Assembly (NCBI GenBank): GCA_027315225.1
Contig: DAHUYJ010000009.1
Coordinates: forward strand, 1-35,893
Source: Candidatus Saccharimonadota bacterium
GTDB taxonomy: Bacteria; Patescibacteriota; Saccharimonadia; Saccharimonadales; UBA4665
Direction: 5' to 3'
DNA length: 35,893 bases
Shown: positions 10,233 through 34,552 of the stretch, piece by piece
Layout of the letters: every line of letters starts with the position of its first letter
Position numbering within the stretch: the first letter of the stretch is position 1
The notes under the pieces: generated by a model
Told to the model about the DNA's origin: nothing
The model's database searches: none
Seen by the model: only the letters and a program-made list of their open reading frames with translations
Program-made: the position numbers and the translations under genes

Positions 10233-11957
10233 ATGAATGGGTTTCCCCAATATCATGAGATTGCCCAGCAAAGCAGTGAGACAACAGAGCACATTTTGGA
10301 TTTGGCAGATCCCCTAGACCGGATGCTTAACGGCTACATCGATGATATATCCAGAGACCGGTTACCGACAGGGACCGAGCAGAGAGACCACGTACTAGGA
10401 GTTCAGCACGGCAGCCTTGTGTCAGCTAAAGAACTGATCGAAAGTCATGCCGGACTGATAGCAGCAGTCGGGTATCGGTTTAAAAGTCGCGGAATAGGTA
10501 GTAGCGAACTTCTTGCAACGGGGAGTAAGGAGTTAGTGAGAATTGCCCTGCATTATGACACAAGCAAAGGCTTAAAGTGCTTTAATGATGATATCGTTGT
10601 CGCCTTGGAGCACAGGTTTAGGAGCATGCTTGACGGTGAACCGGTGCCTGCCTATGCATACCCACCGACAGCCTCATCGCCTATGGATAACGTGGTTCAT
10701 TTTGTGCAAGGTTTAGAACACGTTAATCCTTCTAAGCCACTGGAACCCTCCAGCGGCTCAACCAGGCTCATGATAGAAAAAATGACAGGCCGTTTGGCTG
10801 CTCTCAAACAATCCAAAGCGAGGGAAAACGTCGCGGCTCTTAAGCCCGCCGGGAGAGCTGTACTGCCTTATCTTCACTTACCGGTCGAAGAGATTGCAGA
10901 GTCCCAAGGTTTGACGCCTACTGCTTTCGGTAAAGTTATGGAAGGCGTCAGGGACAAGCTGCAAGTACCCAGCAGGCTGGGTGCGGCAATCGTAGCGCAC
11001 GAAGCAGGGGTTCAATTTCACGATTTACGGCCATCGCCCCCTATAGCCTCATTGACCATAAGACAGCGACAAGTAGCCAGCAGGGTTATAAATGGTAACA
11101 GAGAGATTGCAGGCACCCTTGGCATAACCCAACGCCAGGTAATGTATGCATTAAGAACGTTGTACAAGATTACTGGTGCACGCAATCGAAACGAACTGGG
11201 GCTGATGGCGCACGTTGAGAAATTTGAGCCGTCCCCGGAAGAACTTGCTGCCATACCTGAAGCCTTGAAGGGTTTTACTCACCTGCAGCAAAAAGTGTTG
11301 CCAAGACTGCCTATGCGTTACAAAGAAATCGCAGAAGAGCTGGACACCAGCAAAGATGCCATCAACAGAATCATGCTCACTTCCCGCGCTTCACTAGGCG
11401 TCAGCAATAACGTAGAAATGGCACTTGAGCTGCGCAGAAGAGGAGTGAAATTCGACATCCGTGTTCCGAAATGCGATATATCCACTATGTTGCCGGACGA
11501 TGACATGAAAATCCTTGAATCGCTCGATTACTTTTCGGATAAGGCTATTGGCAAAGCGACCGGTATTCCGCCAGAGCATGTATCGAATATTATCCTCAGC
11601 AGCTTCAGAAAGACAGGCGCCCGTACACGGGTCGAGTTGGCGCTCATGCTGGCAGAATTCGATACAGGTGAACGCCGTTTGCGCGACACCAGAACGCGTC
11701 GGCAGGTTCTGGCTGACAAGCTGGGCGTTGAAGGCATCAGCGATGATGACCTGACAGCCTATATTTCCCGTCTCACCTCAAAGCAACAGCGCGAAGCAAT
11801 GACGTTTTACCTGGCGTATGACACCGATGCCAGCGAACCTCCGTCATGGAAGGATATAGGCAAAAGATACGGCATTCGCAGCGCGTCAGGCAAAGCCAGC
11901 TTAGCTGTTGGGCGCATCCGCGAGATGATAGAGGAAGACAAACAGCTAGGCAGTTAG
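10233..11957 (+). CDS. Sigma-factor-like regulator with tandem LuxR-type HTH repeats
   Basis: 574 residues, not a standard family in this arrangement. Residues about 62-131 (ELIESHAGLIAAVGYRFKSR, then LKCFNDDIVVALEHRF) resemble sigma-70 region 2. Four HTH units follow at about 203-261, 274-331, 347-408 and 421-476. Each looks like a LuxR/GerE domain and shares an ending of the type KTGARNRxELxLM. The clearest opens LTIRQRQVASRVINGNREIA. The C-terminus, about 507-567 (LTSKQQREAMTFYLAYD, then SWKDIGKRYGIRS), resembles sigma region 4. No receiver, sensor or membrane domain is seen. It is therefore a cytosolic DNA-binding protein, perhaps a divergent sigma factor or its relic. It is divergent from the propeller gene and upstream of the Rpf-like gene, so envelope regulation is plausible. 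No Shine-Dalgarno sequence exists; the promoter geometry suggests a leaderless mRNA. Confidence 0.8.
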   Translation: MNGFPQYHEIAQQSSETTEHILDLADPLDRMLNGYIDDISRDRLPTGTEQRDHVLGVQHGSLVSAKELIESHAGLIAAVGYRFKSRGIGSSELLATGSKELVRIALHYDTSKGLKCFNDDIVVALEHRFRSMLDGEPVPAYAYPPTASSPMDNVVHFVQGLEHVNPSKPLEPSSGSTRLMIEKMTGRLAALKQSKARENVAALKPAGRAVLPYLHLPVEEIAESQGLTPTAFGKVMEGVRDKLQVPSRLGAAIVAHEAGVQFHDLRPSPPIASLTIRQRQVASRVINGNREIAGTLGITQRQVMYALRTLYKITGARNRNELGLMAHVEKFEPSPEELAAIPEALKGFTHLQQKVLPRLPMRYKEIAEELDTSKDAINRIMLTSRASLGVSNNVEMALELRRRGVKFDIRVPKCDISTMLPDDDMKILESLDYFSDKAIGKATGIPPEHVSNIILSSFRKTGARTRVELALMLAEFDTGERRLRDTRTRRQVLADKLGVEGISDDDLTAYISRLTSKQQREAMTFYLAYDTDASEPPSWKDIGKRYGIRSASGKASLAVGRIREMIEEDKQLGS

Positions 11958-29917: not shown

Positions 29918-30107
29918 ATAGGTCCTCCGAATTATCGGGTTGGCTGTGTTGTAAGACAGGCTATCGACCGTTATTAAACCTGCCTAGTTGTCGTTGCCAA
30001 ACAAAAGCGCCTTCGATCAAGGACCAAAGACGCGCAAACGATCATAAAAGATTGTCTGTACCTAGGCGACATTATCAAGGTATAAAACCCGTCGCTGTCT
30101 CTGGCAA
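29918..30107 (-). promoter_or_regulatory. rplJ promoter and L10-type leader
   Basis: TTGCCA (30107..30102), a 17-nt spacer and TATACC (30084..30079) predict a transcript start near 30072 and a structured leader of about 155 nt. rplJ leaders in other bacteria bind the L10(L12)4 complex for autoregulation. I cannot confirm the kink-turn binding site by eye, so assignment to that RNA family is inferred from position and size. Confidence 0.55.
29999..30033 (-). terminator. Attenuator-like hairpin in the rplJ leader
   Basis: Inside the leader, GCGTCTT (30033..30027) pairs with AAGGCGC (30013..30007, one G-U), followed at once by the T-rich stretch TTTTGTTT (30006..29999). It looks like an intrinsic terminator about 80 nt before rplJ and could be the off-state of an L10-controlled switch. 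Confidence 0.55.
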
Positions 30108-30109
30108 CT

Positions 30110-30430
30110 TCAAGTGGTAATTATAGCAGGCTCTCCGGACTCCGTCAACGGCGGGCTATGCAGCTCGGCTTCTCTTTGCATAGCCAGCTCGCCGGCTTTC
30201 TGCTTAAGGGTCGTGCCTGGCTCAGCTTCAACCTGCCTACGCAGGGCATCCAATTCATCAGTGCTCAGACTCAGGTGTGGTGTACGCGGCTCCACCTTAC
30301 TCTTTGAATCTGTACTGCCGTCTATATACAAGTAGCGTGCCGGGGCGCCCTCCGCCCCTTGCAAAACCGCGCTGCTGCCATTCACCCACAGCAACCGCTT
30401 TTCTTGTACCGGAAATGTTTCCCGACCCAT
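30110..30430 (-). CDS. 106-aa protein of unknown function behind a leader-peptide attenuator
   Basis: A 106-residue soluble protein, unrecognised. The N-terminal third looks beta-rich (KRLLWVNGSSAVLQGAEGAP, then YLYIDGSTDS). The rest is helical and charged (LSTDELDALRRQVEAEPGTT), ending in a probably disordered tail. It has no cysteine, signal peptide or membrane segment. The start is firm: AAAGGAGG stands 5 nt before ATG 30430. A strong intrinsic terminator lies between its promoter and its ribosome site, so expression needs read-through. The rplJ promoter lies just beyond its stop codon. A role in translation-linked regulation is possible but only inferred from context. Confidence 0.75.
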   Translation of the reverse strand: MGRETFPVQEKRLLWVNGSSAVLQGAEGAPARYLYIDGSTDSKSKVEPRTPHLSLSTDELDALRRQVEAEPGTTLKQKAGELAMQREAELHSPPLTESGEPAIITT

Positions 30431-30710: not shown

Positions 30711-31514
30711 ATGACAAACGAATACGGACAACCAGTTTCAGCAGAGACCCATAGAAGGTTATTGTTCTCCCAGATGAGATATGAAGCTATTAATGGACTC
30801 TCAGAAGCTGGTTTATCGTCTCTAAACGCAAGCTCAACAGGGATGCTTTCGGGTATCATTAAAGTTAGGCCTGAGTCTGTGGGCATTCTTGACCCAGAGC
30901 TAGTGAGCCTCGAGCAGCATGATTCAAGCCTTGTGGCAGCTCTAGCGATCGCTATATCTGCTGTGCGTGGTAAAGAATCCGCACATGAAACGTTTGAACA
31001 GATATCGCCAGAAGCCCGCATTCATTTGACTGGAGGCCCGAGACAAGCCGACCGGATAGAAAGAGCAAGGGACACTCTAAGAGCCGTTAGTGGCCTCAAG
31101 ATTCCTTTGCTTCGCGAAGTAAGGGTTAAGCCTTTGGTTGAAGGCTCTAAGGCCACCTATTCGGACGAGATGCCTTTACCGAGAATTTTTAGAGTTTTAC
31201 AGGCTGGGGGAGCGGTAGTTTTGCCAGTAGACTTAAAGCCCGTCGGAATGCCATCGAAAAAACGAAAAAGTGTTTTATGGGGTGCGGTAACTGGCTATGC
31301 ACAACATAACAGCCGACAGCTTGGGCCGTATAGCTCTGTGCCAGTAGAAAATGCCTTTGATGCCCCGCAGCAACCTGAACCAACAATAGACTTTGTTGTC
31401 GGCATTGCATCGAGATCGGTGCGTCTTCAGGCTACTCTTAATAACATACAGCTAGGCGATGTGGTCAACCAAAATCCGGAGCCAATCCATACTGTTACTA
31501 AAAACCGACGCTAA
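30711..31514 (+). CDS. Hypothetical protein (267 aa), no recognised domain
   Basis: I do not recognise this protein. The N-terminal part (about 1-125) appears helical (HRRLLFSQMRYEAINGLSEA) with Ala/Leu/Ser-rich stretches. The middle (about 125-190) is basic and mixed (LREVRVKPLVEGSKATYSDE), with a KKRKS cluster near 183-187. The C-terminal third looks beta-rich (IDFVVGIASRSVRLQATLNN) and ends in a basic tail. There is no signal peptide, membrane segment or cysteine motif. Codon use and base composition seem less GC-rich than in neighbouring housekeeping genes, perhaps a sign of relaxed constraint or transfer. Only a weak AAGAG precedes ATG 30711. The gene is convergent with the dTMP operon. 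Confidence 0.68.
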   Translation: MTNEYGQPVSAETHRRLLFSQMRYEAINGLSEAGLSSLNASSTGMLSGIIKVRPESVGILDPELVSLEQHDSSLVAALAIAISAVRGKESAHETFEQISPEARIHLTGGPRQADRIERARDTLRAVSGLKIPLLREVRVKPLVEGSKATYSDEMPLPRIFRVLQAGGAVVLPVDLKPVGMPSKKRKSVLWGAVTGYAQHNSRQLGPYSSVPVENAFDAPQQPEPTIDFVVGIASRSVRLQATLNNIQLGDVVNQNPEPIHTVTKNRR

Positions 31515-31539: not shown

Positions 31540-33849
31540 CTACTTAAGCTGCTTGAGCTTGAACTGGCTGTAGCGCTCCGCCGCCAGGCGAGTAAGCTCC
31601 GGGTCTTCGTCGGAGTTAACAAACTTCATAGCTTCAGCGATCAGAGGGTGGACTTCTGCTAGCTTTTCATGCATCTGCAATACCAGCTTGCGGTATCCCG
31701 GGTGCCCTTGCGGGCTGGTGCGCAGTTCATGCAGGTGGAACGCCTCGCGAGCATTATAGGTAACTTTCCAGCGCATCTTGTGGCCCAATAGCGTCGCATA
31801 TTGGGCCTCCAGTTGGTATCCGGCTTTTTGTAACAGTCCATACAAACGCACGCTTTTGTCAAAGCATGATTCGAACTGCTCAGTCAGGCCAGCCTCTTCT
31901 ACCAGGCTTGGTATGTCGTAGCCGTAACGCGGCGTCAGCAATTGCCAGTTCATGTCATCAACCATCCGGTGGCGCTGTAAGTCCCGGAAGATTCCATAAT
32001 CGCACACCAGGTCCCAACTATAGTGGGCCTTTTCCAATGCCCGGCCGGGACGATGGCGGCGGTTCAGGCGCTCGCCCATGTACGTACGGTAAACCTTGAG
32101 CTTTTGCTCGTACGGCCAGGCGTTGACCGTAGACTGCAGCTGTTCCAGCGACAGGTTGCTGTGCTCGTAGAGCATATCCGGGACCAGCAGCAACTCGTTC
32201 TTAGGCCAAAAGTCAACCAGGCTGACATCTCCGCCGGTAGCAGGGGCATGGTTGTCCGGTAGGTAATCCTTAGCCAGCTTCTTAACTGATCGTAAGGTGT
32301 TGGCATGGTACGCGATCATGGCGCCGCCGCGCTCCGGCTTATCGGCCCGTTCCAGAAACATGGGTACGACCTTGCGGCCTTGTTCCAGCAAACCCTGACC
32401 AACGTTTTGGGCCTCTGGCAACTCATCACTTAATAGATGCATAACCAGGCTCTCGTAGGCCTGGCCGGAAGCAAAGATACCGACGGTTGATTTGGTGGCA
32501 ACCGGCAACACTGCCCGAACAGCGTCACAAGCCTGGGCTCGGGTAGCGCCTTTCCAGGCAATGTCACGGTCTTTTTCCTGCACACTTGAGTTGCTCCGGA
32601 CATAATCGGTCAACTGCCGCACCATGGCGGAATACGTATCAAAAATCTCGTCCATGATCTGCCGGTACTGCTTATTGAGCAGCGGCTTTAGATCGGGCGG
32701 TATGTAGTAACGATACCTTCCCTCGGCATCTTTCTGGTCGAAGTAGATGTAGCGGGTTGATTGCTCCAGATAGGCGGCCAGCCGACCCCATTCCAGCTTT
32801 TTGGTCAGCAAGTTGGAGGCGTTCTCGATTACCACGTGCAGGCCGGCAAGCTGTTGTACCGAATCGTCTCCGTAAGCCGTGATAACCCGCTTGAGCAACT
32901 GGGCGTCTTTGTCTGCTTTTCCTGCAAATTCATCAAGGATCGTGATTCGCATATCATCACCGCGCCGGCTCAGGCGGGCCATGGCAGCCGCGATAGTGAC
33001 CGGACTTAGCTTATCGGTAAAGGCGTACACGTCTCCGTCAGAACTTGTAATAGCCTCTTTAAGGTAGTCATGCCCGGTCTGGGTAATTTCATAAACGCCA
33101 TCTTTTGACTTGGATACGAAGAGGCCTTCTGCGGCAGTGTCGGCACCAGTTGACTGGCTTCTCTTCTCAATAATCTCGCCGACCGAAGCCGCTGGGGCAT
33201 CCGAGACGGCGCTGGCTGGTCGCCGCATTGCCAGCTCATCGGAGACCAGTTTCCAAATATGGTCCGCCACCACAGACGGCTTATCAGTCGCGAAGATGAC
33301 CGGCAGCTTGCGCTGCTTGGCCTCCCACAAATAACCGGCGCGAACCCTCTCCAGGAAGGTGTCGTCCAGATTGTCGAACCGCTCGCTGTGGTAGCGGCCC
33401 TCCAAACGGCTGCGTAGAATGTTGACCGGCGCGTCCAGCACGACGCACAGGTCCGGCTCGATTCCGCCCACGGCGAAGTTAATGATGCCGTTTATGGTCT
33501 GGTAATCCGGGACATCGCCGCGGCCATAATACTGTATAGCCAGTGTAGTCAGATAATTACGATCAACCAGGCAGGTAACACCTTGGTCAGTGCTTTGCTT
33601 AATAACCTGCAAGCTCTGTGAGCGGGCAGCGTTATACAGCAGGACTTCGGTACGCGTATTCATAGGATAGCGGGGATCCTGGGTAAGTTGCCGGATAGCC
33701 CTGGCTGTCAGGTTGCTCTGGCTATCCGGTTCCCGAAGCGTCCGCACCGGCAGGCCGGCGGCCCGCAACCGGCGGGCCAGCTCCTGGATCTGGGTCGTTT
33801 TGCCAACGCCTTCCGGCCCCTCAATGACAATGTACTTACCCTTAGTCAT
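31540..33849 (-). CDS. Thymidylate kinase fused to a duplicated ThyX-like (FAD-dependent thymidylate synthase) region
   Basis: 769 residues. Residues 1-210 form a complete thymidylate kinase: P-loop GPEGVGKTT (11-19), LREPDSQ near 38-44, the DRN motif at 96-98 and a lid-like RLEGRYHSERF. A linker (210-278) may hold a small winged helix (GVYEITQTGHDYLKEAIT). Two ThyX-like halves follow. The first (about 279-500) has AYGDDSVQQLAGLHV and R356-x7-S364-x-R366-Y367. The second (about 580-745) has RHR (626-628), RYGY (641-644) and YNAREAFHLHELRTSPQG (698 on). ThyX methylates dUMP using FAD and folate; Tmk phosphorylates the dTMP made. The motif residues are split between the halves, so they may act as a pseudo-dimer. 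The ATG overlaps dcd by 8 nt. A non-catalytic half is possible. Confidence 0.86.
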   Translation of the reverse strand: MTKGKYIVIEGPEGVGKTTQIQELARRLRAAGLPVRTLREPDSQSNLTARAIRQLTQDPRYPMNTRTEVLLYNAARSQSLQVIKQSTDQGVTCLVDRNYLTTLAIQYYGRGDVPDYQTINGIINFAVGGIEPDLCVVLDAPVNILRSRLEGRYHSERFDNLDDTFLERVRAGYLWEAKQRKLPVIFATDKPSVVADHIWKLVSDELAMRRPASAVSDAPAASVGEIIEKRSQSTGADTAAEGLFVSKSKDGVYEITQTGHDYLKEAITSSDGDVYAFTDKLSPVTIAAAMARLSRRGDDMRITILDEFAGKADKDAQLLKRVITAYGDDSVQQLAGLHVVIENASNLLTKKLEWGRLAAYLEQSTRYIYFDQKDAEGRYRYYIPPDLKPLLNKQYRQIMDEIFDTYSAMVRQLTDYVRSNSSVQEKDRDIAWKGATRAQACDAVRAVLPVATKSTVGIFASGQAYESLVMHLLSDELPEAQNVGQGLLEQGRKVVPMFLERADKPERGGAMIAYHANTLRSVKKLAKDYLPDNHAPATGGDVSLVDFWPKNELLLVPDMLYEHSNLSLEQLQSTVNAWPYEQKLKVYRTYMGERLNRRHRPGRALEKAHYSWDLVCDYGIFRDLQRHRMVDDMNWQLLTPRYGYDIPSLVEEAGLTEQFESCFDKSVRLYGLLQKAGYQLEAQYATLLGHKMRWKVTYNAREAFHLHELRTSPQGHPGYRKLVLQMHEKLAEVHPLIAEAMKFVNSDEDPELTRLAAERYSQFKLKQLK

Positions 33850-34552
33850 AAGTCGCGCCCTCTATCTTGACCGGCAACGTCCGCTTGTCCCGGTAGGCTT
33901 TCGGTAGTAACATATCCGGCGACCATGTCTTAATAATAGTCTCCAGATCGTCACCTTGCTGGTACTTGCCGCTGAAACCATCGTCGCGCCCTTGCCCGTA
34001 CGTACCCTCGACTTCGCCGGTTTCCAGGAATACGGCCTGGGCAATGCGTTCACCGACCGGCAACAGCACCGTTTCGCGCTCGTTTAGATTGTAGATTTCT
34101 AACGTCAGGCGGTTGATATATCCCGGGTCAACCCAGCCTGCATCAAAGCAAACAGCCACGCCATTGCGCCCCCAGCTGGAACGGGACTTTACCTCATACG
34201 CACCGGGTGGTTTAATTCCGAAGAACTCATGCGTATGAGCCAGGACCCGCTCCCGCGGCTTGAGACTGATAACGGGGTGGTCGAGGGGAATGTTGGCGAC
34301 CGGCTTAAAACCGTTGAGCTTGCACCAATCACCGTGCGGCATGGCCCGGTACGGCCCGTCAAAATAACGCTCCACGTCCTCAGGGTCGAAAGGGTTATAA
34401 ATAGTCCGCTCATTCATCCGCTCAATTCGGTAGTAGTGGTATCCGAGCGTGACGTCCATGCTGGCATGGCTGATATGCTTCGGGTCAAACGGATGGCACA
34501 GTATATGCCCCTCATCTATGGCTTGCCGAATTTGAATATTGCTGTAGACCAC
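33842..34552 (-). CDS. dcd: dCTP deaminase (dUTPase-superfamily)
   Basis: 236 residues, longer than the usual 180-195 because of an insertion near 45-90 (NPFDPEDVERYFDG, then MPHGDWCKLNGF). The trimeric dUTPase-like core is clear: VKSRSSWGRNGVAV, with the Ser and Arg typical of Dcd, then DAGWVDPGYINRLTLEIYNL carrying the conserved Asp-Pro-Gly, and GERIAQAVFLE. It would make dUTP (or dUMP if bifunctional) from dCTP for the ThyX-Tmk fusion encoded directly downstream with an 8-nt overlap. The start is GTG 34552 with AAAGGGG 6 nt upstream. Confidence 0.9.
   Translation of the reverse strand: MVYSNIQIRQAIDEGHILCHPFDPKHISHASMDVTLGYHYYRIERMNERTIYNPFDPEDVERYFDGPYRAMPHGDWCKLNGFKPVANIPLDHPVISLKPRERVLAHTHEFFGIKPPGAYEVKSRSSWGRNGVAVCFDAGWVDPGYINRLTLEIYNLNERETVLLPVGERIAQAVFLETGEVEGTYGQGRDDGFSGKYQQGDDLETIIKTWSPDMLLPKAYRDKRTLPVKIEGATYD

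Follow-up and report, generated by a model that had tools for sequence, protein, structure and literature searches.

The open reading frame at 10233–11957 of the window, the whole stretch of 35,893 nucleotides analysed here, is one unbroken frame with an ATG start. It is present as a single copy in the 966-kb, 97%-complete source genome. Its architecture, listed in Table 1, is well supported by sequence and model comparisons as that of a sigma-70-derived tandem-HTH regulator family of Saccharibacteria-group bacteria. The linker takes the place of sigma regions 2.4 and 3; it has no region 3 match in Pfam or NCBIfam, an absence that is not conclusive. No receiver domain is matched in the protein in the same two libraries. 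The N-terminal receiver, autoinducer or ATPase domain of LuxR/GerE-type proteins is absent, the N-terminus here being sigma-like. A search of the architecture across Saccharibacteria, which the first-pass annotation had proposed, was run class-wide and gives three relatives: G111 and G063, full-length at 540 aa, and the short G352 at 359 aa.

Table 1. Parts of the sigma-like tandem-HTH gene, with positions in the window
Feature	Position	Strand	Length or basis
Sigma-like tandem-HTH gene, complete	10233..11957	+	574 aa, stop codon within coordinates
Sigma-70 region 1.2-2.1-2.2-2.3-like domain (residues 25-134)	10305..10634	+	NCBIfam, hhalign, AF2 and PDB matches
Linker (residues 135-203)	10635..10841	+	AF2 pLDDT <50; residues 138-186 predicted disordered
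HTH1, type A (residues 204-258)	10842..11006	+	AF2 helices 205-257; likeness to HTH3, z 11.4
HTH2, type B (residues 273-329), LuxR/GerE	11049..11219	+	Pfam GerE; net charge +6
HTH3, type A (residues 347-402), LuxR / sigma-r4-like	11271..11438	+	TIGR02937; AF2 helices 350-402
HTH4, type B (residues 419-477), KTGARTRVELALM ending	11487..11663	+	Likeness to HTH2, z 8.2; net charge -3
C-terminal HTH, sigma region-4-like (residues 504-574)	11742..11954	+	L047 counterpart passes PF04545

The gene lies between genes for a kelch/NHL protein and a LysM-transglycosylase (Rpf-like) protein, and no anti-sigma gene is recognised beside it. Elsewhere in the window, a ribosomal protein L10 leader (29992-30122, minus strand; Rfam RF00557, 50.6 bits, cut-off 44) precedes a same-strand L10-like gene. 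An ORF of 267 aa at 30711-31514 (plus strand) has no Pfam match. The gene at 31540-33849 (minus strand) encodes a 769-aa fusion of thymidylate kinase (residues 9-197) and flavin-dependent thymidylate synthase (Thy1, in two stretches), and a dCTP deaminase-like gene (33842-34552) adjoins it, forming a compact dTMP pathway.

The sigma-like N-terminal domain

NCBIfam models of RpoS, RpoD and RpoH match residues 23-115 of the window protein with E-values of 3e-4 to 6e-3, sub-threshold and mutually consistent; RpoS covers residues 31-115 at 2.8e-4. In the PDB, residues 19-116 match RpoS, SigA and SigB chains, and the 13 listed matches are sigma factors without exception. The TIGR02937 score is 29.9 bits, far below the curated cut-off of 42.9, while the best relative reaches 41.5 bits. 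The sigma signal is stronger in the relatives (RpoH 2.5e-8, SigF/SigG 9e-8, TIGR02937 1e-10), and a PDB search with the family profile finds SigF (1l0o, 3e-6) and SigA (5e-5). Aligned by hhalign with 36 saccharibacterial RpoD-type sequences, residues 1-170 give a probability of 95.7 and a score of 62.5, colinear across regions 1.2-2.3; column-shuffled controls score at most 16.4 with probability <1%.

The AlphaFold2 model of residues 18-143, built from four sequences only, has pLDDT 87.6 and pTM 0.81. Its 50 listed structure matches in the PDB are all sigma chains, and an isolated fragment of RpoS (region 1.2-2) is matched with a target TM of 0.78. No single Foldseek E-value for this model is below 0.001, so the sigma case rests on the agreement of hits and on the sequence profiles. 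The fold is kept across families at 22-27% identity. Profiles and structure prediction together show a predicted sigma-2 fold with regions 1.2-2.3 in the N-terminus. Region 2, placed at about residues 62-131 by the first-pass annotation, is borne out within a domain that is larger than claimed, starting at residue ~25 and taking in region 1.2.

According to a review (PMC4598750), sigma factors contact the beta-prime coiled coil through region 2.2 and capture the -10 strand with regions 2.3-2.4. We compared the four members with RpoD, SigF and two sigma-like paralogues from the same order at the corresponding positions (E. coli numbering). R385 is changed to G and K392 to Y in all four members, and Q406 becomes A, E, E and K. 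Other positions of regions 2.1/2.2 also differ: D403 is E/D/F-like, E407 is T/A/K and N409 is S/A/Q. R385, D403, Q406, E407 and N409 are near-invariant in the 36 saccharibacterial RpoD sequences. E407 and N409, however, differ also in the genuine sigma factor SigF, and Q406 is Ala in L064, a full-length sigma-like paralogue of G358 (same order). In region 2.3, F427 is retained in all members, while W433/W434 are missing, likewise in SigF. Y430, which we take to be part of the -11 base (-11A) pocket, is kept in G111 and G063 but is H in G352 and D in the window copy. The window copy also has N383 changed to H and an acidic 118-NDD-120.

Judged from these residues, binding of core RNA polymerase by the sigma-like domain is uncertain. 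The same doubt had been raised from the altered key positions, which are confirmed, but it is weaker than originally written: some of these positions vary in other sigma factors too, so that loss of core binding is unproven. Promoter opening by the window copy itself appears doubtful, since the residues of region 2.3 responsible for -11 base capture have changed. We do not class the protein as a working sigma factor since it departs from the defining positions of regions 2.1/2.2.

The HTH array and the C-terminal HTH

The AF2 model of the full protein contains four similar helix sets at residues 205-257, 276-328, 350-402 and 422-477, evenly spaced with a pitch of ~72 residues; its pTM is 0.40 and the mutual placement of domains is unreliable. 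The helix sets lie at nearly the same coordinates as four repeats noted in the first-pass annotation (~10839-11015, 11052-11225, 11271-11456 and 11493-11660). Their proposed LuxR/GerE nature is confirmed by profile for HTH2, whose residues 273-326 match Pfam GerE with 31.8 bits (E 1.1e-7, cut-off 23.5), the sole Pfam match above cut-off in the protein. HTH1 has no Pfam match when searched alone, and HTH1, HTH3 and HTH4 are recognised as LuxR/GerE-type via internal similarity and the model only. HTH3 matches TIGR02937 over residues 331-388 (3.7e-7, under the curated cut-off). The NarL HTH matches the AF2 model with a target TM of 0.83 over 63 columns (rmsd 1.4).

Within the protein, HTH1 resembles HTH3 and HTH2 resembles HTH4 (z-scores in Table 1). 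From this pairing the array is best read as A-B-A-B, two copies of a two-HTH unit, and a single A-B pair makes up the array of the short G352 protein. The KTGARNRxELxLM-type ending, assigned earlier to all four repeats, is found in repeats 2 and 4 only, whereas repeats 1 and 3 share ...GVxFD...P instead. KTGART and the following E in HTH4 are invariant across the four members. The net charges of the window modules are 0 for HTH1, +6 for HTH2, +2 for HTH3 and -3 for HTH4; as they differ, not all HTHs need contact DNA.

A region 4 had been proposed at about residues 507-567. It is not matched in the window copy searched alone with Pfam, nor is it found by hhalign of the C-terminus against RpoD alone, but the L047 counterpart passes PF04545 (Sigma70_r4) over residues 481-514 with 24.8 bits against a cut-off of 24.1; L048 is just under it with 22.1 bits. 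By this profile the C-terminal HTH is sigma-region-4-like in the relatives. The window C-terminal HTH includes low-confidence stretches in the AF2 model, and the domain is missing from the short G352 form. The first-pass annotation had said that it would fail if neither end were sigma-like or if residues 62-131 did not fold as a region-2 bundle; neither is the case.

Distribution, selection and genomic context

The public records of the relatives are RYN_407, UBA6040 and 0813_bin17, the last labelled Parcubacteria although the genome collection places it in the same order as the window. The relatives are 26-29% identical to the window protein (28-29% for the full-length pair), and G111 and G063 are two species from another family than the source genome. 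About 1,700 genome look-ups at family, order, class and phylum level, overlaps included, gave no further members at strict cut-offs, and the weaker matches that we opened are RpoD-like or other sigma factors. The gene is absent from G106, a third species of the G111 genus, and from G587, a second species of the G352 genus. The family is rare and scattered, with four carrier genomes so far. A pattern-based search with the single protein found no relatives in genomes and viral contigs. With the family alignment it returned the three known members and a Microbacterium locus (residues 263-326 only), and nothing in viral contigs. Tblastn gave no match in phages and one in plasmids, to the LuxR part only. 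This layout is found in no domain model or phage or plasmid record among those searched and is not described in the open-access papers searched, in line with the earlier remark that no described family is known to have such an arrangement.

Between G111 and G063, 14% of protein residues differ and dN/dS is 0.068, which indicates that the protein is maintained by purifying selection. HTH2-HTH4 are the most constrained part (dN/dS 0.01-0.06), compared with ~0.12 for the N-terminus and 0.13 for the sigma part; the sigma domain is looser, still under purifying selection. Every carrier genome also has its own normal RpoD, which makes the tandem-HTH protein an accessory factor. In the source genome, RpoD is the only region-2 match.

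In the relatives the gene is flanked by YaaA and a 782-aa helicase-like protein. The local gene order is conserved between the G111 and G063 MAGs, and no shared neighbourhood was found between the window and the relatives. The 98 bp upstream of the gene in these two (L047 9873-9970, L048 9873-9970) are identical at 95 of 97 positions even though synonymous sites are near saturation (dS ~1), a conservation which suggests tightly conserved control DNA. This region has a terminator-like hairpin (z ~-4) and a short AT-rich stretch before the ATG, and no operator could be demonstrated in it. A 14-bp perfect palindrome lies near the start codon in L047 and L048. Palindromes that precede the start codon (CAATTATTCATAATTG in the window, CTATTATATAATAG in G111) were rejected as operators: shuffles reach them at 4-5%, and among the upstream regions of 79 ORFs, 8 have arms of equal length. 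Also rejected was GTTCGCC-6-GTTCGCC, a direct repeat ahead of the gene in G111/G063, which belongs to the terminator-like hairpin and is not genome-enriched.

Small genes lie directly upstream in the relatives (L047 9516-9869, 117 aa; L048 9531-9872, 113 aa), poorly conserved between the two species and with no Pfam match. In G358, three consecutive sigma-70 genes (contig C1 ~113217-115864; L063/L064/L066) encode a normal RpoD and two sigma-like proteins of 263 and 395 aa, the longer one with LIAEGN for LIQEGN. Duplication and divergence of rpoD-type genes seem to occur in this order.

Proposed polymerase docking, alternatives and known systems

Profiles, hhalign controls, structure prediction and relatives agree with what had been suggested at first sight, a sigma factor with added DNA-reading modules or a regulator made from sigma parts. 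We favour, with a probability of slightly below one half, a regulator that has retained docking on RNA polymerase and uses its HTH array to read DNA. The sigma-2-like domain would engage the beta-prime clamp helices of the core enzyme, weakly or in an altered way, and the HTH string would bind half-sites that form an extended array ahead of the target promoters. Polymerase would thus be brought to few promoters, by a specialised alternative initiation factor or a promoter-bound activator, and general transcription would be left to the housekeeping RpoD. Several observations argue for this reading: sigma-2 homology comes from four independent methods; the sigma order is colinear, with regions 1.2-2.3 N-terminal and the region-4-like HTH C-terminal; the HTH modules are LuxR/sigma-r4-type DNA binders; the full architecture is kept under purifying selection in two species of another family; and G111 and G063 keep the sigma fold together with F427 and Y430. 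Against it stand the changes of R385, K392 and Q406 in all members, the missing W433/W434 and the window's own changes at N383 and Y430, as well as a window score far under the sigma cut-off, an unseen region 3 and a sigma domain looser than the array.

These changes at core-binding and melting positions also fit a regulator of sigma descent, repressor or architectural, that acts on DNA only and in which the sigma-2-like part would be structural, dimerising or DNA-contacting. The stronger constraint on HTH2-HTH4 than on the N-terminus, the aspartate and acidic stretch of the window copy and the precedent of phage T5 D5, a multi-HTH protein without sigma-2 in which an array can act alone, point the same way. 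However, the sigma-2 fold persists across families, the domain is itself under purifying selection (dN/dS 0.13), and the variation of E407/N409 in SigF and of Q406 in the paralogue means that the changes need not abolish binding. We regard this explanation as possible but somewhat doubtful. It is unlikely that the family is a new sigma class, in which a variable LuxR-type HTH string behind a sigma-2 docking domain directs core RNA polymerase alone. Promoter specificity in such a class would be set by the HTHs, of which the short form has two and the long form four in addition to region 4.

Less probable still is a mimic in the manner of PhyR, where the sigma-like part would bind an anti-sigma or other sigma-binding protein rather than polymerase. 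PhyR illustrates that a sigma-like domain in a larger regulator can act as a mimic (PMC4598750), and polymerase-facing residues are altered here, but no receiver domain was found, PhyR has no HTH array, no anti-sigma gene is recognised adjacent, and with RpoD as the source genome's only region-2 match an anti-sigma would have few targets. An assembly chimera or decaying pseudogene, to which the rare and scattered distribution might point, is very improbable and is refuted by the relatives, two other MAGs having the same architecture and conserved local order, with intact frames and low dN/dS.

If the protein is sigma-derived with variable tandem modules, promoter recognition would be extendable through module duplication. 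If polymerase docking holds, a bacterium with a very small genome and RpoD as its only region-2 sigma match would gain a second polymerase-directing route; if core binding is lost, the protein would clearly exemplify the conversion of a sigma factor into a DNA-binding regulator.

Among known systems, phage T5 D5 and PHROG 323 have several HTHs per chain, one of them sigma-r4-like. The annotation of D5 describes a DNA-binding protein needed for late transcription, and PHROG 323 matches weakly over window HTH2-3. D5 lacks the sigma-2 domain, and hhalign gives a probability of 3%, with one 25-residue HTH stretch in common and no full-length similarity. The alphaproteobacterial anti-anti-sigma factor PhyR likewise reuses a sigma-like domain within a larger regulator (PMC4598750). 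It differs in combining ECF sigma-2/sigma-4 with a receiver domain, without an HTH array. LuxR/GerE regulators (NarL, FixJ, ComA, VraR) share the HTH modules, of which HTH2 passes GerE. To our knowledge each of their chains has a single HTH that follows a receiver or ligand domain, whereas in the window protein a sigma domain is followed by four tandem HTHs. In sigma factors, one region-4 HTH normally reads the promoter. Those of sigma-70 groups 1-3 (RpoS, RpoD, RpoH, SigF) resemble the family in regions 1.2-2.3, by sequence and predicted fold, and in the C-terminal HTH of the relatives. They differ in that the window protein has four inserted LuxR-type HTHs, no region 3 found, altered key positions in regions 2.1/2.2/2.3 and scores under the curated cut-offs. 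The protein may work like a sigma/LuxR chimera.
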